A DNA stretch of 37,738 bases from Massiliimicrobium timonense (GTDB taxonomy: Bacteria > Bacillota_I > Bacilli_A > Erysipelotrichales > Coprobacillaceae). Of this stretch, positions 70 through 30,007 are shown piece by piece. The position numbers were made by a program, and so were the translations under genes. The DNA is taken from NCBI RefSeq assembly GCF_002160865.1, contig NZ_NFLJ01000031.1, forward strand, positions 1 through 37,738, written 5' to 3'. Each line of letters begins with the position of its first letter. Position 1 is the stretch's first letter. The notes beneath the pieces are model-generated. The model was not told the DNA's origin, searched no databases, and was given only the letters and a program-made list of their open reading frames with translations.

Positions 70-94
70 CAAAAACATTTTTAATTATTTCACC

Positions 95-925: not shown

Positions 926-944
926 ATTATATAAAATAAAGATA

Positions 945-976: not shown

Positions 977-979
977 CTT

Positions 980-1171: not shown

Positions 1172-1192
1172 TAAAATTCCTCCATTACCTAG

Positions 1193-1222
1193 ATTATATT
1201 GATTAAAGCATATGATTGTCAA
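1193..1222 (-). promoter_or_regulatory. Sigma-A-type promoter of the pspC-like gene
   Basis: On the minus strand, TTGACA (1217-1222) and TATAAT (1193-1198) are separated by 18 nt. Both hexamers match the consensus exactly, and the -10 lies about 20 nt upstream of the start codon. Confidence 0.75.
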
Positions 1223-1238
1223 TAGACTTCATAAGAAA

Positions 1239-1258
1239 AAGGGATTTGAGTATCCCTT
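1239..1258 (-). terminator. Terminator of the ROK kinase gene, overlapping its stop codon
   Basis: AAGGGAT (1239-1245) pairs with ATCCCTT (1252-1258) around a 6-nt loop. Minus-strand RNA continues with a U-rich run. The stem includes the first two bases of the kinase stop codon complement. Confidence 0.6.
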
Positions 1259-2138: not shown

Positions 2139-2166
2139 CTTATTTATTCCTCCCTTGTTTTATCAT

Positions 2167-2193
2167 ATTTTATCATAACTTATATCTTGTCAA
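2167..2193 (-). promoter_or_regulatory. Candidate promoter of the ROK kinase gene
   Basis: Minus-strand TTGACA (2188-2193) and TAAAAT (2167-2172) are 15 nt apart, shorter than ideal. A 10-nt direct repeat, TTTTATCATA twice on the plus strand, overlaps the -10 side and could be fortuitous in such AT-rich DNA. Confidence 0.4.
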
Positions 2194-2196
2194 AAG

Positions 2197-3429
2197 TTAT
2201 TTTTCATATATTATTGATAATTGTAATGACTGTGAAGACTCTGTTTCTTTTAACATACTTTCTAAATACTGTTGATAAAAACTTAAATCTTCATTTTGTA
2301 AATATTGATAACCATCGCTAGAGCGAAGTTCATCTACATATTGATTGATGTTACCAGTAAAATAGTAACGATTGGCTTTCACTAATACATCTTGAATAGC
2401 CTCTCTTTTTTGAGTATCTGATATCCCCTGCAAAGATTCACCGAATTTATTTGCAGAAACTGTATCAAAATACTCATCTGCATTGACTGAAATTGATAAT
2501 GACTTTGTATGATAGTTCATTTGCTGCTGATTTAATTCAATAATACCATATTGAAGTGGAGCATCCAATAATGATGAAGATGCAATATAATAGATTCCCT
2601 GAATCGTTTTGATATTTTGACAATGTATATGTCCACTTAATACAAATGGAACATGATATTGAGAAAAGAGTTTTGCAATCTTCTCATGATCATTAATGGT
2701 ATATCCATTATTTAACAATTCATTATGGATTGCTAAATTATGATGCATCGCAATAAGAGGTATCTTCTTTTGTTTTTGTATATCTTGGAGTTGTTCCTCT
2801 AACCACTGCATTGTTGACTCTGTAAAAAAACCACTTGCTCCTAGCATCATTTCTGTTTGTTCATGTGCATTAGAATCCATCATCAACAAACTATAATCTT
2901 CATTCAAATCAATACGATAACTTAAAGACTCATCATGTTTTGAAACAGCCAAATGATAACCTAAATCTTGATAAATATCTTGAAAAGTTTTAGCATCAAT
3001 ATTCTCTACATCAAAATAATCATCTTTGCCATATCCCTTTGTATAAATATTATCAATATCATGATTTCCCGGTATAACAGCAACCTGAATATTCTTTTCT
3101 CTTAATTGTTCTAGTTTTTGAGCTAATTGTTGATGACTCCCCTTTTCACCATTAAAACTTAAATCACCTGTTAAAATGACCAGCTCTGGTTTTTCTTGAA
3201 GAACAGCTGATATAAAAGCATCTACAATTTCATCACCATAAGTGACCATTTTCCCATCACCATATAACATAGATTCTTCAAACCAGTCACAATCTTGATA
3301 ATAATCTTTTAAAAAATAATGTAAGTCACTAGCAACAATGATTTTTAAATTGTCTTTATCGCACACAGTTTTTTTCTGGCATCCCATCAAACAAAGACAA
3401 CAAATAATCCCATATATTATCTTTTTCAT
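2197..3429 (-). CDS. Metallophosphoesterase lipoprotein (410 aa)
   Basis: Predicted surface-anchored calcineurin-like phosphoesterase. Residues 1-17 form a lipoprotein signal ending LMGC, with Cys17 the likely lipidation site. Metal-binding motifs of the fold appear in order: SDLH (Asp35, His37), LTGDLSFNGEKG, PGNHDID, a lone His in MHHN, and SGHIHCQ. The C-terminal 110 residues are an unassigned helical extension. The substrate cannot be read from the sequence. The start at 3429 has only a weak AGG upstream, and a terminator hairpin sits about 12 nt before it, so its promoter is unclear and limited read-through from the PTS IIB gene is possible. Confidence 0.82.
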   Translation of the reverse strand: MKKIIYGIICCLCLMGCQKKTVCDKDNLKIIVASDLHYFLKDYYQDCDWFEESMLYGDGKMVTYGDEIVDAFISAVLQEKPELVILTGDLSFNGEKGSHQQLAQKLEQLREKNIQVAVIPGNHDIDNIYTKGYGKDDYFDVENIDAKTFQDIYQDLGYHLAVSKHDESLSYRIDLNEDYSLLMMDSNAHEQTEMMLGASGFFTESTMQWLEEQLQDIQKQKKIPLIAMHHNLAIHNELLNNGYTINDHEKIAKLFSQYHVPFVLSGHIHCQNIKTIQGIYYIASSSLLDAPLQYGIIELNQQQMNYHTKSLSISVNADEYFDTVSANKFGESLQGISDTQKREAIQDVLVKANRYYFTGNINQYVDELRSSDGYQYLQNEDLSFYQQYLESMLKETESSQSLQLSIIYEK

Positions 3430-3440
3430 AAATGACCTAA

Positions 3441-3471
3441 AAAGAATGGATAGCGAAGCTATTCATTCTTT
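3441..3471 (-). terminator. Terminator after the PTS IIB gene
   Basis: A 14-nt inverted repeat (3441-3454 / 3458-3471, one mismatch, 3-nt loop) is followed on the minus strand by a U5 run. It fills the short gap between the IIB stop and the phosphoesterase start. Confidence 0.65.
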
Positions 3472-3481
3472 CACATTTCTA

Positions 3482-3781
3482 TTATTTTTGATAAGCTTCA
3501 TAAGCCATATCAAAAATCTTTTGTGCATTGAAATTCTTAAAATCATCGTCACTAATTAAAATAACTGGTTTATCAGGGTTATCTGCTTTGATTTTTTCAT
3601 ATGATCCTTTTAATTGAGGTTCTACAAGAATCACATCAGCAAGATTACTTGAATATTCTACTGCATGTTCAGATGCAGACCAAACAGTAGCGTCTACTCT
3701 CTTTCTTGAAGCAGCGTCTTTTAATTTTGTAGAAAACAAAGTAGATGTTACACCAGCTAAACAACATAATAAGATTTTCAT
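3482..3781 (-). CDS. Orphan PTS IIB protein, lactose/cellobiose type
   Basis: A 99-residue soluble phosphocarrier of the PTS IIB lactose/cellobiose family. The N-terminal beta strand leads into the active-site loop CLAGVTST with Cys7 as the probable phosphorylation site (canonical form C-x-A-G-M-S-T). The pattern VILVEPQL follows, where the family has a conserved strand and Pro-Gln. AAGGAGGAAT precedes the ATG at 3781. Neither IIA nor IIC is nearby, so the permease must be encoded elsewhere or the protein has become regulatory. Adjacent Cys6 and Cys7 make the exact active Cys slightly uncertain. Confidence 0.8.
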   Translation of the reverse strand: MKILLCCLAGVTSTLFSTKLKDAASRKRVDATVWSASEHAVEYSSNLADVILVEPQLKGSYEKIKADNPDKPVILISDDDFKNFNAQKIFDMAYEAYQK

Positions 3782-3840
3782 GATTATATTCCTCCTTCTT
3801 AGTTCCCTACATCTATTTTATCACAATTTTATAACGACTT

Positions 3841-4452
3841 CTATTGCTTTTGACTTTCCTTCATAAAATTATTTGCTTCTTCTAAGGAAGAATAACCATA
3901 AGCCTTAACAGTATTTGTTAAAATCTTTTCAATCAGATTTTCTTGATTCTGGACCATTCTTAAAACCATCTGTCCATATAGATAAAGTGTTTCATCACTA
4001 TAAGTCATTAACTCTCCTCTTAAGTAAGTTTCAAAAGATGTATCGTCTTTTTCATCCTCTAAAGTATGAGTTAAACGTGCCTGTGCTAAAAGATATGGAT
4101 ATTTTTCATTCATATCTTCACGCATAGATACTTCAATTTCACATAAAATCTGAATGAACGCTCTTTTTTGTGGATCCACTTGTGGCAATTGATCTTGAAT
4201 CGTCTGATAATAATCAGGATCTGTACTTTCCATCATATAGGCATACTTTTCCATCACTGGATTTCTTCCCATCTGTTTGGCTACTTTTAAATCTTGTAGA
4301 CAGGCTTGTTGAACATCTTGATCAAAAGCATCAAATTGACTCTTTCTTTGTAAGTAAAATGTTTCAAAGTCATCCTGACAACTTGCACGTCCATCAATAT
4401 GTTGTACATGCTGAAAAAACTCCCATTCTAACTGTACAATATCATCACTCAT
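3841..4452 (-). CDS. DUF4125 family protein (203 aa)
   Basis: Matches the DUF4125 pattern: an N-terminal EWEFFQ segment, then GRASCQDDFETFYLQRKSQF, an Asp-Leu-x-x-Ala helix, GRNPVMEKYAYMMEST, and a helical C-terminal half. No enzymatic function is established for the family as far as I know. It starts two nucleotides after the DUF4037 stop, with GGAGGG inside that stop region, so the two are co-translated. The tight pairing suggests a shared pathway or complex. It has no signal peptide or membrane span and is presumably cytosolic. Confidence 0.85.
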   Translation of the reverse strand: MSDDIVQLEWEFFQHVQHIDGRASCQDDFETFYLQRKSQFDAFDQDVQQACLQDLKVAKQMGRNPVMEKYAYMMESTDPDYYQTIQDQLPQVDPQKRAFIQILCEIEVSMREDMNEKYPYLLAQARLTHTLEDEKDDTSFETYLRGELMTYSDETLYLYGQMVLRMVQNQENLIEKILTNTVKAYGYSSLEEANNFMKESQKQ

Positions 4453-4454
4453 TT

Positions 4455-6203
4455 TTATCCCTCCATCACATGTTTTAAACGAATATGCTGATCTTGAATA
4501 TGATTCATGACAAGATGTGCATGTGTATCTAAAAAATCATCTTGACTATCAGAAAGTTCCTGTCGCTGCAATTCACCAATCACCATCTGACATATCTTTT
4601 CAATCACAACAACCTTCGCATCATCTAAATTGATACCACCTTGAAAATGTTTCCATTGAAACAATTGAGATGGCAGTTGTACCAGTTCCAACAGTAAATC
4701 TTGGACTTGTTGTAAATAAAAGCAATCTTTTAATCCATAATAACTCCATTTATAATAAGGTTTATATTTTTTATTCAGTAAATAAACAACAGATAATGTC
4801 TGATCTATAAATTCATGAAGTGCCAATGAAGCAGCCACCTCATCGCCTCTTTGCATACATCTTCCATAATTATACTGTCCAGATTGTGCCATTTTCGCAA
4901 GAGCACGGGCTATCTTCTTTATTCTAATATCTTCTGGATATGTTTTGAGATATTCTCTGATCTGTGTGACTTTTCCATAATCATCTTCAAATATACGACC
5001 ATTTGTACAAGCTAATAAAGCATTTTCATCAACGTAAAGCCATTCATCTAAAGTTTCGGGAATTTTTCTTAAAAACTGTTCAAAAAAGCTTTCAATTTCA
5101 AAAACCCCAACTCTCCCAGAACCATGTAAAGAAGTTAATCTTTGAACACCCATAAATTCTTGTGGGAGTTTTTGATAACTTTCCTGTATTTTTTGACCAT
5201 ATTGTTGATAAATATCACGAGGTACCCAAATACAAAATCCCGGTCCAAAATCATGATCATGAGAAATCTCATCATCATACCCCAAACAATCAGAACCCAT
5301 TCCCATAAGTCCAATCGCCATATAAGGACGAATAGAGGCAAATTCTTGTTCAATCATAGCACGACCATATTGGTTATAAAAAGCTTCACATAAATCTAGT
5401 CCTTTGACTGTTTTCATTTCACTTAAAACTTTTTCTTTATTTTTTAAAATGGTTTGATAATCTTTATTTTTTCCATATACACTTTCAATAAGTATTAAAA
5501 CTTGATCATAAATCGCAATAGCCTGAGAAAAGTTTTTTTGTAAGTATTCTAACTGAGCCAATGAAGCAAGGGTTGCAAAATAATGAGGATCATCTGGTGC
5601 ATACTGTTGAAATAACGCCACTGCCTGATGAATACATTGTTTAGCTTCTTCATTTTGATGAAGTGTTAAATACATTTGAGCCAAATTTGTATAAGTAATG
5701 GCTTCTTCTTCACGATAGTTTTCTAATTTTTGAACTATCGTAAGTGCTTTTTTTCCTGTTTCAATAGCCAAAGTTGTAGAACCCATTTCTTGATACAAAA
5801 GACTTAAATTATTATAAAAGGCACTATACAGTTCATCATCTGGAGATAAGTAATGATGATAAATCTTTTCTGTTTTTTGATAGAGTTCCAACGCTTCCTG
5901 ATATTTTCCCTGTGCTCTATAAAAGGTCGCAATATTAATATAAGAGGTAGCTCCATCAATTGTATCTTCAAGTCCACACATATTTAAAATATTCAATATT
6001 TGAACAGCAATCTGATTTCCCAGTTGAAACTTTGATGTAACACGAAAATAACCTATCATTTCATTTAGTAAAAACAATAAGGCTGGATTGTCCTGTTTTT
6101 CCATTGCAATGCGAACTTGTTCCATTAAAAAAGTATAGGCATCATCTAATGCATTTTGTGCATAGAACTGATCTAATTTTTCTTGTAGTTCTTGTATAGT
6201 CAT
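4455..6203 (-). CDS. TPR protein with DUF4037 nucleotidyltransferase-like domain (582 aa)
   Basis: Residues about 1-260 are tetratricopeptide-like helical repeats; examples are ATFYRAQGKYQEALELYQKT, LSLLYQEMGSTTLAIETGKK and AQMYLTLHQNEEAKQCIHQA. From about 275 comes DUF4037, with GLMGMGSDCLGYDDEISHDH and a following Asp. Gly303-Ser304 and Asp316-x-Asp318 form a GS...DxD nucleotidyltransferase signature. The C-terminal helical region (about 430-580) resembles the four-helix substrate-binding domain of kanamycin-type nucleotidyltransferases, by inference. The substrate is unknown. AAAGGAGA precedes the ATG at 6203. It is the first gene of a two-gene unit with DUF4125. The motif set is complete, so I expect an active enzyme. 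Confidence 0.82.
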   Translation of the reverse strand: MTIQELQEKLDQFYAQNALDDAYTFLMEQVRIAMEKQDNPALLFLLNEMIGYFRVTSKFQLGNQIAVQILNILNMCGLEDTIDGATSYINIATFYRAQGKYQEALELYQKTEKIYHHYLSPDDELYSAFYNNLSLLYQEMGSTTLAIETGKKALTIVQKLENYREEEAITYTNLAQMYLTLHQNEEAKQCIHQAVALFQQYAPDDPHYFATLASLAQLEYLQKNFSQAIAIYDQVLILIESVYGKNKDYQTILKNKEKVLSEMKTVKGLDLCEAFYNQYGRAMIEQEFASIRPYMAIGLMGMGSDCLGYDDEISHDHDFGPGFCIWVPRDIYQQYGQKIQESYQKLPQEFMGVQRLTSLHGSGRVGVFEIESFFEQFLRKIPETLDEWLYVDENALLACTNGRIFEDDYGKVTQIREYLKTYPEDIRIKKIARALAKMAQSGQYNYGRCMQRGDEVAASLALHEFIDQTLSVVYLLNKKYKPYYKWSYYGLKDCFYLQQVQDLLLELVQLPSQLFQWKHFQGGINLDDAKVVVIEKICQMVIGELQRQELSDSQDDFLDTHAHLVMNHIQDQHIRLKHVMEG

Positions 6204-15452: not shown

Positions 15453-17726
15453 CTATTTTTCCTTCCTTTCTTCCATATAACGCTTATCAAAATCTTCCTG
15501 ACTGATTGGTCGACTATAATAATAGCCTTGTCCTAAATCACAGCCAAATGATTTCATTAAATCATGATATTCCTTTGTTTCAATACCTTCAACAACCGTA
15601 GAAATAGCTAATGTTTTTGCTAGTTTAATGATTTCTTGCAAAATAATCTTTGCTTTTTGATTATCACTATCAAAAATCTCCTGTAAAAATCCTCTATCAA
15701 CTTTCAATTCATCAATATGAAGTTTTCCTAAAATATTCAGTGAAGAATAACCACTCCCAAAATCATCCATTGAAACCCTAAAACCAATCTGATGTAATAA
15801 ATGGATTTTATCATTGACTTCATCCACATTATCAGCAACCAAATCTTCCAATATCTCTAATGTTAATAATTGTGGTGATACTTGATATTTATTGACAATC
15901 TGTTTTAAACAATCCACATAATCAGCTTCATAAAACAATAATTTAGATTGATTAACAGAAATACCGATCGGTGCTATGCCTTGATCCATCCATTTTCTCA
16001 GCTGTAAACATGCCTGTTCAAACATAAATAAATCCAGCTTCTTACAAAAACCACTGTTTTCAAAAATAGGAATAAATTGATTTGGAAACAACATTCTTCC
16101 ATCATGTGTCTGCCATCTTACCAGTGCTTCACTGCTTTTTAACGTTCCATCTTTTAAATCTATTTTAGGCTGTAAATAAAGCTGAAATTCACCATCTTTT
16201 AAAGCCTGATCCATATGACTTTCAACATAATTATCCATTTTTTCCTGTTCATGCAATTCAATATCATAAAACCAGATATTCGTTAAAATGCTTTCTTTTG
16301 CCTTTGCTAAAGCAAACATAACACGAACCATTAAACTATCAAAAGAATCATCCACAATAAATTCCAAGCTGGAAATAGCCACTCCACAATGAATCTTTAA
16401 CTGATAATTTGTATGTAACAAATCCACATATTGAATAATTTCAGACATGATATTTTCAATTCTTTTTTGTAAGATATCCTTTTGTGTATCTTTTAAATAA
16501 ATATAAAACTGATCAGCCCTATCTCGACAGAAAAACTCTCCCTCTTTTAAATGTTTTTGAATCACATTTCTTTCATAAATCAATAACTGATCTCCTTGTT
16601 CATGACCAAAAATTTCATTAAAAAACTTAAACTGTCTAATATTCAATACAGCTACACTACAATAAGGTTGTTCTTTAAATATTTCCTTTCCTAAAGATAC
16701 AAAATAAGAATAGTTATATACTCCTGTTAAAGAATCATAATAAGCAAAATGCTTCAATTCACGATTATTTTTCAACATGAAACGATAACCAAGAATCAAT
16801 AAAGCAACAAATAATCCCACCATAAATAGAAAAATCAAACCAACAATACGCATATTTTCATTTGTAAATAAATGCGAATCATCAATCATATTAACACTAT
16901 AAATATACCAGTTATTAATGCCTAAAGGCTTTAATACACCATGATAAGATTGTCCCTCATATTGAAAAGAATGTGTAAAATCATGCTGCATCTGTAATGC
17001 ATCTTCTAATTCATGATAATCTTTTTGTTGGAAAAAAGGTGATGCAAAAAGGGTTGTCTGATGAAATAAATCATACTGAGAATTGACAAGAATTTGACCA
17101 TCTTCATCCACCAGATAAGCATAAGTGTCACCACCTAAAACACCAGTACCAGCTCCTGCATCCATCCATATTTCAACATTTTTAGTAGCCAGTAAAACCC
17201 CAACAACATGGTCTTTTTGATAAATAGGTATACCATAAGCATAAACATGTTTTTGTGAAATACGACTTTTAAAAATATCAGAAATCGTTCTTTTTCCAAC
17301 AAAACCATCCGCAACAATCTCTTGAATTTCTTGTTGAATCATAGATAATGATTGATGTTCTTTAACCTCATTATCTGAATTGGCAATAATACCTTCTTTT
17401 GATTCATCAAAATACATCATGGTTGTAAAATCATTTTGTTCATTAGCATCTGATAAAACTTGTGGAAATTGTGGATTATCCACAATGTTTTCCATTTCTA
17501 AAACACTGGCAAATGAATCTAAAATCTGAAAATCATTATCAATTTGTTGTTGGAGAATACTCATATCTTTATCAATCTCATCTTCGATTTGATGCACTTT
17601 ATTATCTTCTACAATATTATTTAAATGAATACGTAAAGATACGGATACACAAAGAAGACTCACAGCAATAACAAAAACAACAATCATCATTTTTCTAATT
17701 CTTCTTTCAAATACATCTTTCATCAT
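15453..17726 (-). CDS. Membrane Cache-GGDEF-EAL protein, probable c-di-GMP phosphodiesterase (757 aa)
   Basis: Residues 12-32 form the first membrane helix, then an extracellular double-Cache-like sensor (about 45-285), a second helix (about 294-314), a GGDEF domain (about 328-490) and an EAL domain (about 505-750). The GGDEF signature reads RADQF (403-407), so cyclase activity is unlikely. The EAL domain keeps EALVRW (533-538), TLEILED and MDDFGSGYSS (653-662), so c-di-GMP hydrolysis is expected. The ligand is unknown. I chose the ATG at 17726 because AAGGAGGA lies in front of it; an in-frame ATG 30 nt upstream lacks a site. It leads into the asparaginase-cutC pair, which is an unusual partner. 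Confidence 0.88.
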   Translation of the reverse strand: MMKDVFERRIRKMMIVVFVIAVSLLCVSVSLRIHLNNIVEDNKVHQIEDEIDKDMSILQQQIDNDFQILDSFASVLEMENIVDNPQFPQVLSDANEQNDFTTMMYFDESKEGIIANSDNEVKEHQSLSMIQQEIQEIVADGFVGKRTISDIFKSRISQKHVYAYGIPIYQKDHVVGVLLATKNVEIWMDAGAGTGVLGGDTYAYLVDEDGQILVNSQYDLFHQTTLFASPFFQQKDYHELEDALQMQHDFTHSFQYEGQSYHGVLKPLGINNWYIYSVNMIDDSHLFTNENMRIVGLIFLFMVGLFVALLILGYRFMLKNNRELKHFAYYDSLTGVYNYSYFVSLGKEIFKEQPYCSVAVLNIRQFKFFNEIFGHEQGDQLLIYERNVIQKHLKEGEFFCRDRADQFYIYLKDTQKDILQKRIENIMSEIIQYVDLLHTNYQLKIHCGVAISSLEFIVDDSFDSLMVRVMFALAKAKESILTNIWFYDIELHEQEKMDNYVESHMDQALKDGEFQLYLQPKIDLKDGTLKSSEALVRWQTHDGRMLFPNQFIPIFENSGFCKKLDLFMFEQACLQLRKWMDQGIAPIGISVNQSKLLFYEADYVDCLKQIVNKYQVSPQLLTLEILEDLVADNVDEVNDKIHLLHQIGFRVSMDDFGSGYSSLNILGKLHIDELKVDRGFLQEIFDSDNQKAKIILQEIIKLAKTLAISTVVEGIETKEYHDLMKSFGCDLGQGYYYSRPISQEDFDKRYMEERKEK

Positions 17727-17791
17727 TGTTAGTCCTCCTTGCTCATATTCCATCATATTATACCACTTTTAAAAAAACTATAAAATAAAAA

Positions 17792-20532: not shown

Positions 20533-20976
20533 TTATGATTTTTTTAATAACTCATTCATCTTTTTATCAATAATTTTAATCATTTCCAATACATCCTGAA
20601 AAACAATCTCCTGTCCATCAAAGAATAAAGAACCTTGCCATGTTGCCTGGCGCCTTGATTGAACAACAATATCAAAATCTGTAATCTTCCCTCTTTTTTT
20701 TGCAATCGTTTCCCAATCACATAAAACTTCTGGCTTATTTTGATAACGCCCAACTGCTTCTTGTTTCATAAAGCTTCGTGATAAATGAGAAGATAAGGGA
20801 TTTCCATTTTTATTAAAAACTTCTTCAAAACGTAAAATAATTTCATGGATATCAAAAAATTCAATAGGTGATTCTATCGTATTATTGTATGCATAACCTT
20901 TCATCTGAAAATGATCATACTCATCAATACATACATGAATCATATTAAAAGGAATACTTTTTGCATATTTCAACAT
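20533..20976 (-). CDS. Unknown protein with C-terminal WQG-motif segment (147 aa)
   Basis: Not a family I can name. Residues 1-95 include IPFNMIHVCIDEYDHFQMKG, YAYNNTIESPIEFFDIHEII, and RSFMKQEAVGRY. The last 50 (GKITDFDIVVQSRRQATWQG ... VLEMIKIIDKKMNELL) match the separate 59-residue protein at 20279-20458. AGGTGATG suits the ATG at 20976; earlier starts at 20982 or GTG 20985 are possible. It starts within 10 nt of the SARP regulator's stop and should be co-translated with it, so it may be that regulator's partner or co-effector. No membrane span or signal. Confidence 0.7.
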   Translation of the reverse strand: MLKYAKSIPFNMIHVCIDEYDHFQMKGYAYNNTIESPIEFFDIHEIILRFEEVFNKNGNPLSSHLSRSFMKQEAVGRYQNKPEVLCDWETIAKKRGKITDFDIVVQSRRQATWQGSLFFDGQEIVFQDVLEMIKIIDKKMNELLKKS

Positions 20977-20985
20977 GTTCATCAC

Positions 20986-22164
20986 CTATTGTTTAGGTAA
21001 GATTTCATCAACCATCAAATCAATATTTAAGGTTGTATGATTTAAAGAATATCTTATTTTACGTAAAACTCTGTTCATAACACTAATGGCATTTTCATAA
21101 TTACATGATGGTAATAAAACAACAAATTGATTCACATTCAATCGAGAAACAACATCACCAATACGAAGTCCTTTTAATAAGGCTTCCTGAACTTTGTTCA
21201 TGACTCTTTCTACCGCTTTTTTTGAATAATCATCTTCAATCATAGAATGATCCATCACCGATACCAAACATAAATGTGAACAAATACCTAATCTTCCAAT
21301 CGTTCTTGTCTGCATAGCATATATTTCTCTAAATGTACCATATTCACAAAGAAAAGCCCCCTGTGTTTCATCATTTGCCAGTTCCTGTTGAACTTCCATA
21401 ATATCTAATTCATCATCATGTGTTTCCTTTTTAATCATTTCATAGAGTTCTAAAAGTGACTGCGAAGGTTTCACACCCAATGTTTGATAAAGTAAATCTG
21501 TTGTTGTTTTATATGTGTCTTTTGCTTTTTTATATTGTTTCTGGAAGTATAGAGAACGAATAAGAATTTCATAAATACATTCTTCAAGATTATCAATAGC
21601 GATAGCTTGACGAGCAATTCTTTCCATTTTTTCATATTCTTTCTGTTCTTCTAACAACATAGCATATTCAATTGTTTTATCCATAAAGAGCGAATGATAA
21701 TACACACGTTTTGATAAAACACTGTGATCCTCTTTAATTTCCATCAAATACTTTCCAGTATATGATTCAAGTAAATGCTCATAATATTCTGGCTTTTGTG
21801 AAGTTTTCAAAAGTGCTTCATATTTTTCAAATATGATTGTATCTATTTGTAAATGATAATTTGGATTAATAGAATAAGAGCCTTTCCCCGTGATAATAAA
21901 ATCCGTTAATCCAAATTCTTTCTTTAATAAAGTTCTTAGTCTGTATATTAAATTTTTTAATGCTCCAATTGGATTATCGACATCATCAAGATACCACAAG
22001 ACATCCACCAGTTCACTGGAAGGAACAGTTCTTTGATAATGTGATAAAAGATAGGCAAACAATTTGACAAGTTTCTCAGATTTCATTGTTTCACTATCAA
22101 TTTCACGTTCATGATAGGAAAATGAAAATTTATGAAACATTGTGATAATGACGCAATCTCCCAT
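20986..22164 (-). CDS. SARP/BTAD-type transcriptional regulator with degenerate GGDEF-like domain (392 aa)
   Basis: An OmpR-like winged-helix domain (about 12-100: KLVKLFAYLLSHYQRTVPSS, ELVDVLWYLDD, ALKNLIYRLRTLLKK) is followed by a bacterial transcriptional activation domain (about 105-250, TPR-like). The C-terminal domain (about 265-385) resembles GGDEF, with LRIGDVVSRLNVNQFVVLLP where RxGGDEF is expected. NVNQF (343-347) makes cyclase activity unlikely, so it may bind a nucleotide or act structurally. I chose the ATG at 22164, preceded by GGAAGGGG. It diverges from the filament operon and is followed by the coupled gene at 20976; these are its likely targets, by position only. Confidence 0.83.
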   Translation of the reverse strand: MGDCVIITMFHKFSFSYHEREIDSETMKSEKLVKLFAYLLSHYQRTVPSSELVDVLWYLDDVDNPIGALKNLIYRLRTLLKKEFGLTDFIITGKGSYSINPNYHLQIDTIIFEKYEALLKTSQKPEYYEHLLESYTGKYLMEIKEDHSVLSKRVYYHSLFMDKTIEYAMLLEEQKEYEKMERIARQAIAIDNLEECIYEILIRSLYFQKQYKKAKDTYKTTTDLLYQTLGVKPSQSLLELYEMIKKETHDDELDIMEVQQELANDETQGAFLCEYGTFREIYAMQTRTIGRLGICSHLCLVSVMDHSMIEDDYSKKAVERVMNKVQEALLKGLRIGDVVSRLNVNQFVVLLPSCNYENAISVMNRVLRKIRYSLNHTTLNIDLMVDEILPKQ

Positions 22165-22208
22165 TGAAGTCAAACCCCTTCCTGACAAAAAACTTTTGTC
22201 TTATCTTT

Positions 22209-22378: not shown

Positions 22379-23323
22379 ATGCCCATAACAAAACGTTGTT
22401 TGATGCTATGCTTAAGCATTGCTTTTTTACTCACCGGCTGTTCTTCCCCAAGTCATAAAGAACCTCCTTCAAAAAAAGGAACGCGTGATAATACACCAAC
22501 TGTTTTACAGCCTCAGGCTTCTGGTGAAAAAACCATTGGCAATTCAAAAATCACCTTTGATTTATCCCATAGTGAAGATGGCTATACAATGGTTGAATAT
22601 CATGGTCATAATTCTAAAGTTAAAGTACGTATTCAAAATCCAGATTCACAGGAATTTTACACTTATGATATTCATGAAGGATATAATACTTTCCCTTTAA
22701 CTGGAGGTAGTGGCAGCTATACTTTTATTGCTTATGAGAATATCTCAGGTACAAAATATAGTCAACTCTTTTTAAAAGAAGAAAATATCCAAATACAAAA
22801 TGATTATATATCTTATCTTTACCCTAATCAATATGTTTCTTTCGACAAAAACACCCAAGCCATTTCCCTAGCTCAAGAGATTGTTGTTGGTGCCAACAAT
22901 GATTTAGAAGCCGTCAGTTATGTTTATGATTATGTAATTGAACATATCAGCTACGACGATGAAAAAGCAACACTTGCTAAAGAAGGGAAAATGGCTGGTT
23001 ATCTTCCAGATGTGGATGAAACTTTGCAGACAAAAACAGGAATCTGTTTTGATTATGCTGCTCTTATGGCAACCATGCTCCGTACGCAAAATATTCCTAC
23101 CCGCATGGAACTGGGTTATGTCACAATGGAAGATGAAACCATTTATCATGCATGGATCAGCGTCTATATTCATGATATTGGGTGGATTGATGATTTAATT
23201 CATTTTGATGGTAAAAACTGGTCTATGATGGATCCCACATTGATTTCTGATGGTCACAACAGTTCTAAGGTGAGATCTCTCATCAAAGATCAAAAAAATT
23301 ATACAACAAAATACCTGTATTAA
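22379..23323 (+). CDS. Transglutaminase-like lipoprotein (314 aa)
   Basis: Residues 1-21 are a lipoprotein signal ending LLTGC (Cys21). A beta-rich segment follows (about 45-150). The transglutaminase/protease-like domain (about 160-295) carries the catalytic triad: Cys223 in KTGICFDYAALMATMLR, His257 in YHAWISVY, and Asp285 in MMDPT. Such domains are usually peptidases or cross-linking enzymes acting on surface proteins. GAGGTGAG precedes the ATG. It is the first gene of the filament operon, 12 nt from the GspF-like gene, so it may process or attach filament components. That is an inference. Confidence 0.88.
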   Translation: MPITKRCLMLCLSIAFLLTGCSSPSHKEPPSKKGTRDNTPTVLQPQASGEKTIGNSKITFDLSHSEDGYTMVEYHGHNSKVKVRIQNPDSQEFYTYDIHEGYNTFPLTGGSGSYTFIAYENISGTKYSQLFLKEENIQIQNDYISYLYPNQYVSFDKNTQAISLAQEIVVGANNDLEAVSYVYDYVIEHISYDDEKATLAKEGKMAGYLPDVDETLQTKTGICFDYAALMATMLRTQNIPTRMELGYVTMEDETIYHAWISVYIHDIGWIDDLIHFDGKNWSMMDPTLISDGHNSSKVRSLIKDQKNYTTKYLY

Positions 23324-23335
23324 GGAGGCTTATTT

Positions 23336-24373
23336 ATGCAACAAAATCTATTGACAAATCGTGAAATTGCTGTTTTTACATCACAAGTAGAATTAATTCT
23401 TCATGCTGGTATATCACCTTATGAAGGTATCATGATCATGAATGAAGATCAAGATGATGAGAAAATGAAAATGATTCTCACAACAATTGAAGATGAATTA
23501 AGTGTAGGTAAACCTTTCTATGAAGCCCTTGAAACATCAAAGGTCTTTCCCGATTATTTATTAAATATGGTAAAAATTGGAGAAATCGCTGGTCGTTTAG
23601 AAGAAGTCATGCACTCATTATCTATTCATTATCAAAGATTATATGAAACAAAACAGAATATTAAGAGTGCTATTGCTTATCCGATTATTATGATTATGAT
23701 GATGTTTGTTGTGGTTATTGTCTTAATGACTCAAGTGCTTCCTATTTTTAATCAAGTTTTTATTCAATTAGGAAGTACAATGACTGGTTTTTCACAAATG
23801 GTATTACAGCTAGGTATGACACTTTCCACTTATTCGTATGTATTCATTGGTATTCTTGTCGTGATAATTATATGTGTTTTCTATTTATTAAAAAGTTCTC
23901 GTGGCAAAAAAAGACTTTATCATTTCTTAACACGTTTTTATGGAGCACGTGATATCACATTAAAAATGGCTTTATCTCAATTTACAAGTGCCATGTCCAT
24001 TGCCTTAAGCAGTGGTTTAGATATCGATCAAAGTTTACAGATGTCTAAGGCATTGGTTGAACATCCAGCTTTAAAAAAGCGTATTGATCAAGCTGAAAGC
24101 ATGTTAGATCAAACAGATTTAGTTAATGCTTTAGTAAAAAGTCATGTTTTAACAGGTATGTATGCCAGATTATTAAAATTAGGTCATCAAACAGGACATG
24201 TAGATACAATCATGAAAAATATCGCTGATCATTATAATGAAGAAACAAATGAAAGAGTAGAACATCTGATTAGTATTATTGAACCAACATTGGTTATTGT
24301 TTTATCCCTCTTTGTTGGTATTATTTTATTAAGTGTCATGTTGCCACTTATGGGCATCATGTCAAGTCTATAG
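23336..24373 (+). CDS. GspF/PilC-family inner-membrane platform protein (345 aa)
   Basis: Polytopic platform protein of type II secretion / type IV pilus systems. Two T2SSF domains are visible. The first (about 8-130) starts FTSQVELILHAGISPYEGI and ends with KIGEIAGRLEEVMHSLS before a membrane helix. The second (about 205-335) has QFTSAMSIALSSGLDIDQSL and LKLGHQTGHVDTIMKNIADH. Membrane helices lie around 110-140, 165-190 and 310-340. It transmits ATPase motion to the pseudopilins. AAGGAGGC precedes the ATG. It is in one operon with the PilT-type ATPase. Confidence 0.9.
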   Translation: MQQNLLTNREIAVFTSQVELILHAGISPYEGIMIMNEDQDDEKMKMILTTIEDELSVGKPFYEALETSKVFPDYLLNMVKIGEIAGRLEEVMHSLSIHYQRLYETKQNIKSAIAYPIIMIMMMFVVVIVLMTQVLPIFNQVFIQLGSTMTGFSQMVLQLGMTLSTYSYVFIGILVVIIICVFYLLKSSRGKKRLYHFLTRFYGARDITLKMALSQFTSAMSIALSSGLDIDQSLQMSKALVEHPALKKRIDQAESMLDQTDLVNALVKSHVLTGMYARLLKLGHQTGHVDTIMKNIADHYNEETNERVEHLISIIEPTLVIVLSLFVGIILLSVMLPLMGIMSSL

Positions 24374-24673
24374 ATGAAACTCATTCGTCAATATTGGTTA
24401 TCTATTCTTTCATCATTTTTCATTTGTATTCTTATGATCAGTGGTTTCCAGTCGATTTCACAAAAAACATTTCAAAATCAAAAAGAAAGTCTGGAAAAAG
24501 CCTTAAAGCGAGGAATCATGCAATGTTATGCATTAGAGGGCAGATACCCCGCATCTTTAGAACAACTCATATCTGATTATCATATTATATATAATCAAGA
24601 TCTTTTTGATGTGCAATATGAAGTTGTAGCCAGTAATATGATGCCCTCAATAACAATTATTGTTAAGGAGTAG
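24374..24673 (+). CDS. Pseudopilin-like protein, GspG-like C-terminal region (99 aa)
   Basis: One N-terminal membrane helix (about 8-28) and then a helix and a small globular part. MQCYALEGRYPASLEQLISD follows the classic pseudopilin pattern (Y-x-x-E-G-x-Y-P-x-x-L-x-x-L). Unlike true prepilins it has no Gly-Phe/Met cleavage site and no Glu at position 5 of the helix. The ATG follows the GspF stop directly, with no clear Shine-Dalgarno, so it relies on translational coupling. I infer the major or GspG-like subunit. Confidence 0.72.
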   Translation: MKLIRQYWLSILSSFFICILMISGFQSISQKTFQNQKESLEKALKRGIMQCYALEGRYPASLEQLISDYHIIYNQDLFDVQYEVVASNMMPSITIIVKE

Positions 24674-24683
24674 GAGGGATTAT

Positions 24684-25154
24684 ATGAAAAGACATCATTC
24701 CATTGATTTTGTTTTTGTTCTTTTACTCTTTAGTTTATTTGTTATGGGTTCACTGGCATTGATTTCAATTGGAAGTCGTGTCTATTCATCTACTGTAGAT
24801 ACGCTCGAACAAAATTATACTCAATATACCATTCTGGATTATATCCAGCAAAAAGTCAGACAAAATCTATCAGTGAATCAAATTGAAATTCAGACATTTG
24901 ATCATCAAACTGTTTTATGTATTCATGAAATCTATCAGGATGTTCCTTATACAACATATATTTATCATGACCAGAATGCATTAAAAGAACTCTTAATTGA
25001 TGATAAGCAGTCTTTTGATAAAGATCGTGGTGAAACAATTATGGAAGTGGATGCTGTTTCTTTTGATATTTCTCAAAACATTTTAACAATCACTGTTGAA
25101 AATAATCAAGAAAAACGACAGACAAGTTTGGCTTTAATAGGAGGTTCATCATGA
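24684..25154 (+). CDS. DUF4860-like membrane protein, minor-pseudopilin-like (156 aa)
   Basis: One N-terminal membrane helix (about 8-32, HHSIDFVFVLLLFSLFVMGS) leads into an extracellular domain with YTQYTILDYIQQKVRQN, a set of beta strands and ALKELLIDDK. The layout resembles GspJ/ComGF-like minor pseudopilins, and the sequence matches what I know of DUF4860 proteins from Lachnospiraceae. No prepilin cleavage motif is present. The ATG at 24684 has GTAGGAGGG upstream; a longer frame from 24660 lacks one. Its stop overlaps the next start (ATGA). Confidence 0.78.
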   Translation: MKRHHSIDFVFVLLLFSLFVMGSLALISIGSRVYSSTVDTLEQNYTQYTILDYIQQKVRQNLSVNQIEIQTFDHQTVLCIHEIYQDVPYTTYIYHDQNALKELLIDDKQSFDKDRGETIMEVDAVSFDISQNILTITVENNQEKRQTSLALIGGSS

Positions 25155-25522
25155 AACATAGTAAAACAAGTCTTTTTCTGATGGAATTTATTATTGGTAT
25201 TTTATTTTTTTCGCTGGCTGTAGGGCTTTGTGTGCAAATCTTTGTAAAAGCTAAAACAATGAATGATGAAAGTGTCAAAAGAAGTCAAGCTCAATTGATA
25301 GCGACTTCAATTATTGAAAATGCAAAAGCAAATCATGACATAGATTCTCTTTTATATTTTGATGAACAAGGATTACCTGCTTCCAAAGAAAATCATCAAT
25401 ATTTTGCTAAAATAGATCAACAAAATCACTTATTCAAAATTTCTATTTGCTATCAAGATCATGAAATCTATACGATTGAATACTACCATTATCATCAACG
25501 AAGATGGGAGGCATCCTCATGA
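25151..25522 (+). CDS. Prepilin-like protein with Glu in the helix but Ser at the cleavage position (123 aa)
   Basis: The N-terminus MKHSKTSLFLMEFIIGILFF has the prepilin layout: basic leader, then helix. Glu12 would be position +5, which places Ser7 at -1, where Gly is normal. So it is the one small protein in the operon that resembles a prepilin, with an altered cleavage site. The soluble part carries QAQLIATSIIENAKANHD, as seen in minor pseudopilins of the GspI/PilV type. It overlaps the previous gene by four nucleotides and the next by four (ATGA both), so it is tightly coupled. AGGAGG lies before the ATG. Confidence 0.75.
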   Translation: MKHSKTSLFLMEFIIGILFFSLAVGLCVQIFVKAKTMNDESVKRSQAQLIATSIIENAKANHDIDSLLYFDEQGLPASKENHQYFAKIDQQNHLFKISICYQDHEIYTIEYYHYHQRRWEASS

Positions 25523-25974
25523 AACAAAGAAAACTTACAATGAATATTGGGATTATTTCCTTTATAGTTATTTTTGTCATTTTATGTTTAATGACTTTTG
25601 CTATTCTTTCTTTATCCAGTGCCAAATCAAATGCCCAATCTGTTGAAAACAGTATTAATCATACCAAACAATATTATCTTCTTTCAAGTCAAGGCGAAAA
25701 AACATTAGAAACTATTGATAATTATTTATATCAATATTATCAATCAAGTACAAATAGTGATGATTATTTTACCCATATCCAATCTTTAACTCAGATCATT
25801 CCTGATAGTTCTATTCATCAACATCTTTTGACATATACATTACAAGATCAAGAAAACACTCTTTATGTTGAAATAGAAATTCTCTATCCCGGTTCACAAC
25901 TCTATCAAATCAAAACATGGAAAATCACTCCATCCAATGAATGGGATATGGATCAAAGTATGGACATATTATAA
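25519..25974 (+). CDS. GspK/PilX-like minor pseudopilin candidate (151 aa)
   Basis: One N-terminal membrane helix (about 8-32, LTMNIGIISFIVIFVILCLM) is followed by LSLSSAKSNAQSVENSINHT and KQYYLLSSQGEKTLETIDNY, a long helix as in GspK and PilX. The basic leader is short and there is no Gly cleavage site or Glu at +5. I chose the ATG at 25519, with GGGAGG upstream; the in-frame ATG at 25504 has none. It ends 11 nt before the ATPase gene. The assignment is by layout rather than strong similarity. Confidence 0.7.
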   Translation: MKQRKLTMNIGIISFIVIFVILCLMTFAILSLSSAKSNAQSVENSINHTKQYYLLSSQGEKTLETIDNYLYQYYQSSTNSDDYFTHIQSLTQIIPDSSIHQHLLTYTLQDQENTLYVEIEILYPGSQLYQIKTWKITPSNEWDMDQSMDIL

Positions 25975-25985
25975 AGGAGGAGCCT

Positions 25986-27050
25986 ATGAATATTCAAAAT
26001 ATACTTCAAGAAGCTGTCAAACAAAATGCAGCTGACATTTTCATTATTGCCGGACAACCTGTAACAATCAAAGTATTTAATCAATTAATTCCCTTAAATG
26101 AACAGAAAATTATGCCTGATTCAAGTTATGAATTAATTCAACAAATCTACGAACTGGCAAATCACCGACAAGATGATATTTTAAAAAACAAAGGCGATGA
26201 TGACTTTTCCTTTTCATTACGAGGACTTTCAAGATTTCGTGTCAGCACTTATAAACAACGTGGTACTTATGCCGCAGTGATTCGTGTCATTTCATTTGAT
26301 TTACCACACCCCGAAGATATTGGCATTCCTTCTCATATCATTGAACTTGCCAATATCAATAAAGGTTTGATTTTAGTCACTGGTCCTGCCGGAACAGGAA
26401 AAAGTACCACTCAAGCATGTATGATTGATTATATCAATCAAACCCAATCCAAACACATTATTACATTGGAAGATCCTATTGAACATCTTCATTCCCATCA
26501 TCAAAGCATTGTTTCACAACGTGAGATTTCCATTGACAGTGAATCTTATGTGAGTGCCTTAAGAGCAGCTTTAAGACAAGCCCCCGATGTTATCTTATTG
26601 GGTGAAATGCGTGACTATGAAACAATTAATATTGCATTAACAGCAGCAGAAACAGGGCACACTGTTATTTCAACATTACATACTTTAGGAGCTGCCACAA
26701 CGATTGATCGTATTATTGATGTTTTTCCTGCGAATCAACAACACCAAATTGCCTTACAGTTATCTATGACTCTAGAAACCGTCATTTCTCAACAGCTCAT
26801 TCCAACTGTAGATCATAAACTTGTTCCTGTGTTTGAAGTCATGATTGCTACACCAGCCATCAGAAATCTCATTAGAGAAAACAAAGTTCATCAAATTGAC
26901 GGAATCATCGCTTCTAGTGCCAGTTCACATATGATCAGCATGGATAATAGTTTGCTGAATCTTTATAAAGAAGGAAAAATCACACAAGAAACAGTTTTAC
27001 TTTATGCAACAAATCAAGAACTAATGAAACGAAAATTGAATCTAAAATAA
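25986..27050 (+). CDS. PilT-type secretion/retraction ATPase (354 aa)
   Basis: Hexameric ATPase of the type II/IV secretion superfamily. Walker A GPAGTGKST is at residues 133-141, the Asp box is ITLEDPIEHLH, Walker B is DVILLGEMRD (201-210), and the His box is AETGHTVISTLHTLGAATT. The N-terminal domain has DIFIIAGQPVTIK and LSRFRVSTYKQRGTYAAVIR, matching PilT rather than PilB/GspE, which have an additional N-terminal domain. The operon has no PilB, so this ATPase may power both assembly and retraction, or only one mode. AAAGGAGGAG precedes the ATG at 25986; a longer frame from 25941 is unlikely. It is the last gene before a terminator. Confidence 0.92.
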   Translation: MNIQNILQEAVKQNAADIFIIAGQPVTIKVFNQLIPLNEQKIMPDSSYELIQQIYELANHRQDDILKNKGDDDFSFSLRGLSRFRVSTYKQRGTYAAVIRVISFDLPHPEDIGIPSHIIELANINKGLILVTGPAGTGKSTTQACMIDYINQTQSKHIITLEDPIEHLHSHHQSIVSQREISIDSESYVSALRAALRQAPDVILLGEMRDYETINIALTAAETGHTVISTLHTLGAATTIDRIIDVFPANQQHQIALQLSMTLETVISQQLIPTVDHKLVPVFEVMIATPAIRNLIRENKVHQIDGIIASSASSHMISMDNSLLNLYKEGKITQETVLLYATNQELMKRKLNLK

Positions 27051-27126: not shown

Positions 27127-29949
27127 TTATGAAATTTTCTTATTTTTTCTTAAAAATATAACCAATCCTATAGTACCTATTCCAACAAGGACACAAACAA
27201 TATAAATTATTGGTTGATTTTGTGTTTTTGCTTCTATTGTATGACTAGCAGTACTACTATTATCACTTGAAGAAGCTAAAGGAATATCTTTTTCACCAAT
27301 TGTTTCTACAACCTCATCAGATTGATTATCATTTTTTTCAACTTTATATGTTTCATCAGTTCCTGTTACTAACAATGAAACATTTGGAACCACCTTATGT
27401 GATGATATATCAAGCTGAATATGAGGTGTTTTTAAACTTTCAAAAGATTCTTCTAATTGAGAATCATGGTCATCTCCCGGATTGGTTTGCCAAGACTCTT
27501 CTGGAATTTGTGGTTCTTCAGATACATCTGGTTTTTCTGGAATGACTGGTTCAACAGGTTCTATCGGTGTAACTGGTTCTGATGGATGGTAGGTATCAAG
27601 ATTTGGTAACCACAAACCTAACCCATTTCCTATTCTCATCAAAGTTAATGTATCGCTTAAATATGAATCCAAATCATCAACATAAGCCATTTTTCCTAAA
27701 ACAACATCAAAATCGTCTGTATTCAAAAGATTTCCTTGTTCATCATGACTATTGTATTCTATAAAACGAACTGTTTCTTCATATGTAACACTGATTGTTT
27801 CTCCATCTTTATTCTTTCTTGTCCATTTATTCCATCTTTCATTTTGAATCTGATGACTCATCGTACAATCTATAAACTGTGTAGCAGAAGAAACATCTGC
27901 ATATAAAGGATTTGGCGTTGATGGATCATAATCAACAACATAAGTAACACCATCTGCAGTTGTTTCTGTCACTGTATAACATTCATTTTGCCACGGACGA
28001 CCTAAACTTACATCTTCAACACGTTCATCTGCACTTAATGAGCATTGATAAAATACAAGCCCTATACCATCTTTTTTAGTATTTGGTGCACTAAAATAAC
28101 CGTTTTTCTTTCCATTAAAATATGCCATATGCAATTGGCATGCTTCAAAATAAGCATCTGCATCGCCAAAAATAAAATCAACTGTTCCCTCAATATAGCA
28201 ATCTTTAAAATATGTACGATTACCATTTCCTTTAACATATAAAGTATCTTGTCTTCCTATAAGACGACAATTATTTAAGTAAACCTTATCAGCATTACTG
28301 CAAAAAGCAACTGCTGGTGTTTGTTCATCTTTTTGTGTTTTCTTTTCTGTATTATAATTATTTTCTACAGTAATATTATACATAGAAAACGCACTAGCTC
28401 CTGATGTTACAATAATTGTTCCACTCTTATCAGTTCCCACATCATAGTCATCTTGTGGTTTGAATTCTCCATTAATAAACGTATTTGATGAATAAAAACC
28501 ACTTTTAATAACAACATCTTCTGGTTGAGAACTCAAAGCTCTTAATGTGACATGTGATTGACTAATTTCAAGTTTTTCCTCATAAACTCCTGGTTCAATA
28601 TCAATAATCAATGGATGAGCTGCATCAGATATTTCATGATCTAATGCAGATTGAATTGTTTGATAATCCGCTTCTTGGCTACTTCCTACACGTACTGTAT
28701 GTGAAATAGATTGATTATCACTTTTATAATCAATACGAATATTTTCTAAATAACAACTTCCTTCACCTTCAAACTTTAAAGGAACATAACGTGTTTCTTC
28801 ATTAGCAATTACAAATTCCTTGCCAATAGTAATATCTTGATTATCCCATGTTACTTTTAAACCGTTATAATTATTACCATTAACACTCACCGCAATTTCA
28901 TCATCTTTTGCTAGTGGAATATATAAAATGGTTGTAGCATTAATTTGAGTATCACCATCACGTGGAGAAAATTTACCAGATGAAGCATCAATTTGAATTC
29001 CTTCATACTCATCCTTACCGCCTTGAATTTCTGGTCTTGTATTTGCAGCATTGGATGTAAAATCCCATCCTGTATCAATAGCTTTTACATCTGGTACTTC
29101 AAATCCAAGATCACTTTTATAATCTATACTTATTAATCCTACATATGTTTGTTGAGAAAATTGAACTTTTATATAACTAGTTTCATGAATATCTAATGAA
29201 ATTTTCTGATTTGTATAATAGTTATCACCATTAATTTGAATTTCTGCTGCTTGACTTTGATTATCAACCCCTGAAATTAATATAGACACCCCTTGTTCAT
29301 CAGATGTCACAGGTATATAAAGTATTGTCCCACTATTAATTTGTACACGTGAATATTCTGGTTGAACTGCAAATTTACCATTTGTAGCATCAACAAGAAT
29401 ATCATCAAATGTTCCTTTTGTTTGTTCAATTGAAACAGAATTATCTTCAAAAGTATAATCTTTATCCTTAGCAACAATATCTTCAGGAACACCTGGATAT
29501 GCTTCTAAATAAGATAATGATAAATTCAAAAGATATGCAGTAGTTTTAAATTCCACTGTTACATCTTGCCCCGTTTGTTCTGATGAAAGTGGAATAGTTA
29601 TGAATTGACTGGCTGACTTATATTCATTTTCCAATACTGATACTGTTGCTTCTCCACCAGAAAGTTGCAATGTAATTTCAGCTCCTTCTTGATGTGATTC
29701 AACTGGAATAATTAATTTCGTTTGTGCGTTAATTTGAATATCTTGATTGTCAACTCTTTTATTAAACTTTGCTCCATTAGCAGTTGCATCTATGTCTATA
29801 CCTGACCAAGTCCCTGTTGTTCCTTCGATCGTACCTTCTGGAGCATCAACATATGACCATACTTTAGATGTTGAAGCAAAAACATCTAAAGGTGTATTCA
29901 TGCCTAAAAGCATAAAACATGCTAATAATAAAACAAATAATTTTTTCAT
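27127..29949 (-). CDS. Membrane-anchored modular pectinesterase, CE8 (940 aa)
   Basis: A signal peptide (1-25, cleavage likely after VFA) precedes three related beta-sandwich modules of about 120 residues. Each has the pattern G-I-x-I-D-A-x-x-G-K-F ... Q-I-N-A-x-T-x-L-Y-I-P. The CE8 domain (about 420-790) demethylates pectin; its motifs are NNCRLIGRQDTLYVKG, YIEGTVDFIFGDADAY and SLGRPWQNECY. A Pro/Glu-rich spacer (about 800-850) and a C-terminal helix ending FLRKNKKIS anchor it. No LPxTG sorting motif was found, so it is held by the membrane helix. I chose the ATG at 29949 (AAAGGAGGATG). No other pectin genes are here. Confidence 0.88.
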   Translation of the reverse strand: MKKLFVLLLACFMLLGMNTPLDVFASTSKVWSYVDAPEGTIEGTTGTWSGIDIDATANGAKFNKRVDNQDIQINAQTKLIIPVESHQEGAEITLQLSGGEATVSVLENEYKSASQFITIPLSSEQTGQDVTVEFKTTAYLLNLSLSYLEAYPGVPEDIVAKDKDYTFEDNSVSIEQTKGTFDDILVDATNGKFAVQPEYSRVQINSGTILYIPVTSDEQGVSILISGVDNQSQAAEIQINGDNYYTNQKISLDIHETSYIKVQFSQQTYVGLISIDYKSDLGFEVPDVKAIDTGWDFTSNAANTRPEIQGGKDEYEGIQIDASSGKFSPRDGDTQINATTILYIPLAKDDEIAVSVNGNNYNGLKVTWDNQDITIGKEFVIANEETRYVPLKFEGEGSCYLENIRIDYKSDNQSISHTVRVGSSQEADYQTIQSALDHEISDAAHPLIIDIEPGVYEEKLEISQSHVTLRALSSQPEDVVIKSGFYSSNTFINGEFKPQDDYDVGTDKSGTIIVTSGASAFSMYNITVENNYNTEKKTQKDEQTPAVAFCSNADKVYLNNCRLIGRQDTLYVKGNGNRTYFKDCYIEGTVDFIFGDADAYFEACQLHMAYFNGKKNGYFSAPNTKKDGIGLVFYQCSLSADERVEDVSLGRPWQNECYTVTETTADGVTYVVDYDPSTPNPLYADVSSATQFIDCTMSHQIQNERWNKWTRKNKDGETISVTYEETVRFIEYNSHDEQGNLLNTDDFDVVLGKMAYVDDLDSYLSDTLTLMRIGNGLGLWLPNLDTYHPSEPVTPIEPVEPVIPEKPDVSEEPQIPEESWQTNPGDDHDSQLEESFESLKTPHIQLDISSHKVVPNVSLLVTGTDETYKVEKNDNQSDEVVETIGEKDIPLASSSDNSSTASHTIEAKTQNQPIIYIVCVLVGIGTIGLVIFLRKNKKIS

Positions 29950-29978
29950 AGCATCCTCCTTTTTTTCAAACATGGTGC

Positions 29979-30007
29979 ATTCTAACATGAAAAAATCCGC
30001 ATATCAA
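29979..30007 (-). promoter_or_regulatory. Promoter of the pectinesterase gene
   Basis: Minus-strand TTGATA (30002-30007), 17 nt, TAGAAT (29979-29984), with TGT before the -10 (extended form). Confidence 0.62.

Follow-up and report, generated by a model that had tools for sequence, protein, structure and literature searches.

Seven consecutive plus-strand genes at positions 22379–27050 of a 37,738-nucleotide stretch of the Massiliimicrobium timonense genome (contig NZ_NFLJ01000031.1; the whole stretch is referred to as the window) may encode a reduced type IV filament machine that is self-contained, driven by a PilT-type ATPase and independent of a prepilin peptidase, and that moves a membrane-anchored stub of four pilin-like proteins in cooperation with a transglutaminase-like lipoprotein. 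We put the probability of this reading as a whole at about 0.5, and hold that the machine is self-contained and peptidase-independent with confidence well above that given to the stub and to the role of the transglutaminase. What was observed is a gene order recurring in 53 loci, the pilin folds of models of two of the small proteins, intact motifs in the ATPase and the transglutaminase, prepilin cleavage sites that are few or missing, and a host genome, G812, which is assembled as a single contig and lacks any prepilin peptidase.

Every system of the type IV filament superfamily has a core of pilin, prepilin peptidase, extension ATPase and platform protein (PMC10191384). In the operon, the pilin fold (models of two proteins, G and DUF4860) and the platform were found; a prepilin peptidase with its cleavage signal and an extension ATPase were not. 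If our reading is correct, the pilin-platform-ATPase core works without leader cleavage, a PilT-type ATPase can serve as the sole motor, and DUF4860 gains a predicted fold and a proposed role. Gut bacteria would then carry a common, unstudied surface machine; they do seem to run an undescribed, simplified machine of the pilus or secretion type. In the non-subscription literature searched, we found no description of this operon, no mention of DUF4860 and no paper pairing a transglutaminase with such an operon. Gram-positive pil, tad and com operons were surveyed by Imam et al. (PMC3244431), and an operon of this kind is not described in the parts of that survey consulted.

Architecture and conservation of the operon

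An initial annotation, made from the letters of the window alone, had proposed seven consecutive genes on the plus strand. All seven open reading frames are present, end to end, with spacers of at most 14 bases or short overlaps:

22379–23323, plus strand: TG, Cys-His-Asp transglutaminase-like lipoprotein of 314 residues (PF01841, lipobox, catalytic triad)
23336–24373, plus strand: F, inner-membrane platform protein of the GspF/PilC/ComGB type, 345 residues (PF00482 twice, GspF)
24374–24673, plus strand: G, predicted small pilin-fold protein of 99 residues without a prepilin site (AlphaFold2 model and VIA-align)
24687–25154, plus strand: J, the DUF4860 protein, predicted minor pseudopilin of GspJ fold, 155 residues (PF16152, AlphaFold2 model and VIA-align)
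25151–25522, plus strand: I, putative GspI/PilV-like single-span protein of 123 residues (invariant Glu at +5, gene order, homologue in locus L146)
25516–25974, plus strand: K, putative GspK/PilX/ComGG-like single-span protein (Gly invariant ahead of the hydrophobic stretch; Glu5 absent)
25989–27050, plus strand: T, hexameric ATPase of the PilT family, 353 residues (TIGR01420, motifs, tree)

Comparison with homologues favours translation starts later than the first in-frame codon for DUF4860 (24687), K (25516) and T (25989); alternative in-frame starts are TTG 24660 for DUF4860 and ATG 25941 for T. As the annotation had also stated, no PilB/GspE, PilMNO, secretin or prepilin peptidase gene lies within the block (PilMNO was looked for in the operon only). 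Scans for promoters and terminators gave results at chance level.

The annotation had suggested collecting neighbourhoods of DUF4860 and PilT as a check, and these show that the gene set is conserved across 53 loci in Erysipelotrichales and Clostridia. DUF4860 is encoded in 19 of 60 genomes of relatives. In all 18 relatives' loci besides the window the order F-G-J-I-K-T is kept; TG stands in front in 15 of them and is missing from L045–L047, and in L041 and L042 one small gene fell below the cut-off, an open reading frame of similar size occupying its place. Named genomes were scanned with the alignment of T, that of G being too variable, a query that also draws canonical PilT proteins, which were separated by neighbourhood and tree. 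Sixteen loci at 52% identity or more all proved to lie in the same operon, their hosts belonging to Lachnospiraceae, Oscillospiraceae, Family XIII/Mogibacterium, Erysipelotrichaceae and unclassified Clostridia (three of the 16 begin at a contig edge, so that the position of TG is outside view). Most matches below these 16 had a platform and a second ATPase of the secretion type next to them, an arrangement known from classical pilus loci. A further 18 loci carry the operon, two of them (L129, L130) showing no T within the stretch read; the 53 loci thus comprise the relatives' 19, window included, and 34 others (16 + 18). In a sample of 393 genomes from the window's phylum all 12 matches fell within its own order, and in a sample of Clostridia, the class of genome G065, 50 of 392 genomes matched, four of them weakly. 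The operon is therefore present in about one-eighth of the sampled Clostridia genomes and in many Erysipelotrichales. Because the same order recurs in 18, 16 and 18 loci, the operon is not a product of chance; chance and pseudogene status were both dropped as explanations, the genes being intact and their order recurring across the two groups.

The three larger proteins agree with what had been claimed for them, namely a transglutaminase-like lipoprotein, a single GspF/PilC platform and a PilT-type ATPase. TG matches Transglut_core (PF01841, E 5.2e-23) and carries the lipobox LTGC; its triad of C223, H257 and D285 is invariant in 46/46 homologues, and the lipobox cysteine, C21, is kept in 93%. 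By sequence, it is a member of the transglutaminase-like superfamily with an intact Cys-His-Asp triad, and a predicted enzyme. At L059 the TG gene is convergent and placed after T, and at L055 a gene at 52–5712 for an LPXTG-anchored protein of 1886 residues, with a pilus ancillary-like match, lies directly upstream of TG. F matches PF00482 (T2SSF) in two stretches (7.6e-44) and GspF at 2.4e-56, which marks it as a predicted T2SSF platform protein. T scores 411 bits against TIGR01420 (PilT/PilU), for which the curated cut-off is 319, and its Walker A (GPAGxGKST), LEDPIE, GEMRD and AIRNLIRE motifs are all present in the alignment; the catalytic residues are invariant among operon homologues and the nearest solved chains are PilT. 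These features assign T to the PilT/PilU ATPase family. A maximum-likelihood tree built from 94 ATPases separates all the operon T proteins (n=35) from the rest by a branch with support 100/99, so that they form a clade of their own, apart from canonical PilT. Some Erysipelotrichales T proteins (L030, L041) group among those of Clostridia, which suggests transfer. The named neighbours of the window's T in the tree, L058 and L062, point to a host within the Erysipelotrichales.

Pilin folds and prepilin cleavage sites

Four small single-span proteins with G-, J-, I- and K-like layouts had been claimed, and structure prediction had been proposed as the way to examine them. The AlphaFold2 model of G (pLDDT 92.3) consists of a helix spanning residues 2–55 and a small beta part; the six best VIA-align matches are all type IV pilins, the best being PilA4 (6xxd; Z 7.8, root-mean-square deviation 3.1, 94 residues aligned), a Z score that by itself is middling for a long-helix protein, with no rival fold near it. 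For DUF4860 (model pLDDT 90.2; PF16152 at 2e-21), the nine best matches are type IV pilins or XcpW/EpsJ/GspJ, with Z of 8.3–10.1, and the following one drops to 4.8. All these pilin matches came from VIA-align, plain Foldseek searches of the PDB with the two models giving no match at E <= 0.001. The models thus give both G and DUF4860 a type IV pilin fold, in DUF4860 specifically that of GspJ, and the objection that the small proteins might lack a pilin fold fails for these two.

In sequence searches G, I and K matched no pilin family above its curated cut-off, and profile searches with them against PDB sequences were uninformative, rows for gp41 and TRPM8 being discounted as helix matches. 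I has a weak PilV match (E 0.007) and a Glu, E12 at the +5 position, in 52/52 homologues, while the residue at −1 varies (S, F, G, R and further types). In K, a Gly opens the membrane stretch in 52/52 homologues and Glu5 is lacking; a weak phmmer match (E 1.9e-4) links K to the ComGG-like protein of the same genome. The same combination, a Gly at that place without a Glu, is seen in GspK. Gene order, the invariant Glu and Gly and the sites found at locus L146 suggest that I is GspI/PilV-like and K GspK/PilX/ComGG-like; within a GspI-GspJ-GspK tip set, J is supported by its fold model, and only L146 and traits of their sequences speak for I and K. Conserved cysteines were seen in G (alignment column C51, 92% of 53) and in I (column C27, above 90% in the first 18 sequences and below 80% in the larger set).

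Prepilin sites were sought as [GA]xxxxE followed by ten hydrophobic residues, a strict pattern that found the controls ComGC and ComGD and missed a ComGE-like control because of a charged residue in its stretch. The consensus occurs in 0/53 G, 1/53 DUF4860, 10/52 I and 0/52 K proteins. By eye, G and DUF4860 lack both the Gly and the Glu of the site, while I keeps an invariant Glu and has Gly or Ala at −1 in 10/52. A cleavable class III signal for J, I and K is found only in L146 (contig C88 of genome G716), a locus of a metagenome-assembled genome with no TG in front of the operon. Its sites read RRGG↓YTLIELVL (GG↓YTLIE) in DUF4860, RDG↓FTLAELIM (DG↓FTLAE) in I and KRG↓MASALIIML (RG↓MASALI) in K; its G has none. 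The same assembly carries two site-less operon copies, L144 and L145, next to L146. In a quick tree (n=51) the T of L146 is sister to the other 50 operon T proteins, with a support of 99 by the Shimodaira-Hasegawa-like approximate likelihood ratio test (SH-aLRT). The sites in J, I and K at this one locus, from a metagenome-assembled genome, imply that the small-protein families descend from ordinary cleaved pseudopilins and that the sites were lost in most lineages, and they lend further weight to the assignment of the small proteins as pilin-like.

Loss of prepilin sites in most members would also be expected of a decaying, functionless remnant of a type IV pilus operon. We consider this explanation very improbable, as opposed to it are seven intact genes whose order is kept across Erysipelotrichales and Clostridia, and the invariance of the TG catalytic residues (46/46), the T catalytic residues, the Glu of I and the Gly of K.

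Prepilin peptidase and other filament systems in the host genomes

The genome from which the window comes has a comG operon (contig C92) with canonical pilins and one A24 prepilin peptidase (contig C1), and no PilB-type ATPase of a type IVa pilus was found in it; a search of the genome for pilD and pilB, advised by the initial annotation, thus leaves the ComG pilus as the only system besides the operon. Of the 35 operon genomes collected first, 31 encode a further T2SSE-type ATPase, and A24 is present in 29 of these. The other four (G016, G065, G066, G072) are without such an additional ATPase and also without A24; relaxing the threshold to E 10 brought up nothing but a match of 19 residues in G016 (E 3.6). 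Under random assignment, joint absence in four of 35 has a probability of 15/52360 = 3e-4. Since incomplete assemblies could mimic the absence of A24, we sought closed genomes. With completeness set at 95%, 46 operon genomes of Clostridia were drawn, a setting that does not vouch for G065 itself, the centre of the draw; in eight of the 46 no A24 was found at E <= 0.1. The eight include G547, a near-single-contig assembly (operon contig of 2,969,292 bases out of 3.0 Mb), and G812, a single contig of 2,335,857 bases with 54 tRNAs covering 20 amino acids. Reading G812 throughout, we found the operon T as its sole T2SSE-type ATPase, the operon F as its sole platform, and each small protein once. 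No PilB/GspE-type extension ATPase is present in the operon or anywhere in G812, the only such motor being of the PilT type, and no A24 was detected in the whole genome, the best look-alike having E 0.04. The one GxGD-type stretch in a hydrophobic frame of G812 was rejected as a peptidase because it looks like a transporter.

These genomes bear directly on whether the operon could be an accessory module, supplying minor pilins and a retraction motor to the ComG or type IVa pilus of the same cell. Consistent with such a role are the ComG operon and A24 in the window's genome, the position of the operon directly upstream of comG in L043, and its enrichment alongside PilB. G812, with no other type IV filament ATPase, platform or A24, excludes a general dependence on another pilus and so contradicts the accessory role as a general one; G016, G065, G066 and G072 point the same way, and the operon brings its own platform. 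We regard the accessory module as improbable. The conserved operon and the inventory of G812 together indicate that the operon is no fragment of a classical pilus and more than an accessory to one, so that the outcome named in advance as refuting, a classical type IV pilus elsewhere that these genes assist, did not materialise. DNA uptake as the main role was dropped, there being no link to it in G812 (ComEC was not searched for).

Several observations weigh against a self-contained, peptidase-independent machine working with TG. Most operon genomes, that of the window included, have both A24 and another type IV filament system. PilB-type type IVa pili are enriched in operon-bearing Erysipelotrichales genomes (12/19 vs 2/41, p 2e-6, a generous value, since relatedness breaks the independence of the genomes), and this would agree with a link to type IVa pili in some hosts; together with the position of L043 it hints at cooperation with other pili there. 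Where a peptidase exists, K could be cleaved, since its invariant Gly without Glu is as in GspK, and cleavage of K and of some I proteins is possible in the A24-bearing operon genomes. Finally, TG is absent from L045–L047 and L146 although the flanking sequence is present, and is therefore dispensable. As a separate observation, the operon of L043 (8729–10966, genome G052) lies directly upstream of a comG-like operon.

Proposed mechanism, related systems and flanking genes

In type IV filaments the ATPase moves the platform, the platform acts on the membrane helices of pilins, and HIJK-type minor pilins form a tip complex (PMC10191384). By analogy, the T hexamer would drive the platform F, and F would act on the membrane helices of the four pilin-fold proteins, of which I, J (DUF4860) and K may form a tip complex like that of the type II secretion system (T2SS), with G as the stem. 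As leaders are mostly not removed, the subunits would remain membrane-anchored; in a monoderm they would make up a short stub or piston within the zone of the cell wall, and no long pilus would be extruded. ATP-driven movement of this stub might cooperate with the surface enzyme TG, for instance by positioning it or by supplying the peptide or protein that it would crosslink or cut. More tentatively, the operon could represent a branch without prepilin processing or extrusion, in which a PilT motor and a GspF platform move a permanently anchored I-J-K-G complex coupled to TG, that is, a mechanical device and not a pilus. The conserved operon, the pilin folds predicted for two subunits and the sole PilT-type ATPase bear out the description of a coherent but stripped-down machine in the initial annotation, which had not noticed that prepilin sites were lost and that some operon genomes lack a peptidase.

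The operon shares with type IVa pili a PilT-family ATPase bearing AIRNLIRE, a PilC-type platform and a minor-pilin-like set, but lacks PilB, PilD, PilM, PilN, PilO and a major pilin with a class III signal, PilT being its only motor. A role of PilT in extension of the MSHA pilus (PMC9815625) may offer a partial precedent for a lone PilT motor. Like the Com pilus (ComGA-GG, ComC), it is a small machine of monoderms, built with a single ATPase, a single platform and a few minor pilins; its T, however, is of the PilT type and not ComGA, the operon of G812 does not depend on ComC, and in the window's genome it is separate from the coexisting comG. With the generic systems that Denise et al. 2019 (PMC6668835) define in the type IV filament superfamily it has in common an ATPase, a platform and a pilin without a fixed type, whereas their model demands a recognisable major pilin and sequence libraries do not recognise the small proteins of the operon as pilins. 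The same study lists MSH loci without a peptidase, though the genomes in question contain other systems.

A true short surface pilus, with subunits extruded uncleaved or after processing by another protease, would account for the retained pilin folds of the G and J models, for the Gly kept in K and for Glu5 kept in I, a residue which in pili pairs with the N-terminus of a neighbour; PilT can, moreover, promote extension in one system (PMC9815625). We nevertheless think it unlikely, as [GA]xxxxE is missing from G (0/53) and almost entirely from J, the operon has no separate major pilin, and known filaments pair Glu5 with the neighbour's freed N-terminal amine (PMC10191384).

The T2SS pseudopilus is the closest in its small proteins, sharing the G-, J-, I- and K-like quartet, the GspJ/XcpW/EpsJ fold predicted for DUF4860 and a K without Glu5 like GspK. 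It differs in that the operon is without GspE, L, M, O and a secretin, has mostly lost the sites, adds TG and uses a PilT-type motor. The resemblance, extending to the absence of filament-specific genes, raises the idea of a T2SS-like device of a monoderm, in which a pseudopilus would drive one particular protein across the wall; TG might be that protein, or some other protein of the surface. An LPXTG surface protein beside the operon in L055 and an adhesive-domain protein in L063 fit this idea. Such a device is somewhat less likely still than a short pilus: TG carries a lipoprotein signal of its own, GspE, GspL and GspM are missing from the operon, and no substrate-like neighbour is conserved across 35 loci.

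Clustering of neighbours in those 35 loci, done in search of a conserved substrate, returned only two recurring families, REG and f1; another, f0, was discarded because the members scanned had been joined through shared domains of the GGDEF/response-regulator type. Both recurring families are represented in the window:

20986–22188, minus strand: REG, divergent regulator with HTH, BTAD (SARP-like) and degenerate GGDEF domains (Pfam), signature NVNQF
20533–20985, minus strand: f1-family protein of 150 residues next to REG, with no Pfam or NCBIfam match

REG adjoins the operon in many loci, either divergent upstream or downstream, and is probably its regulator; f1 is represented close to the operon in 7 of the 35 loci. 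Farther upstream in the window, 15453–17756 (minus strand) encodes a GGDEF-EAL type protein resembling cyclic di-GMP phosphodiesterases, and on the other side 27127–29988 (minus strand), convergent with the operon, encodes a 953-residue pectinesterase-domain protein with a C-terminal membrane anchor.

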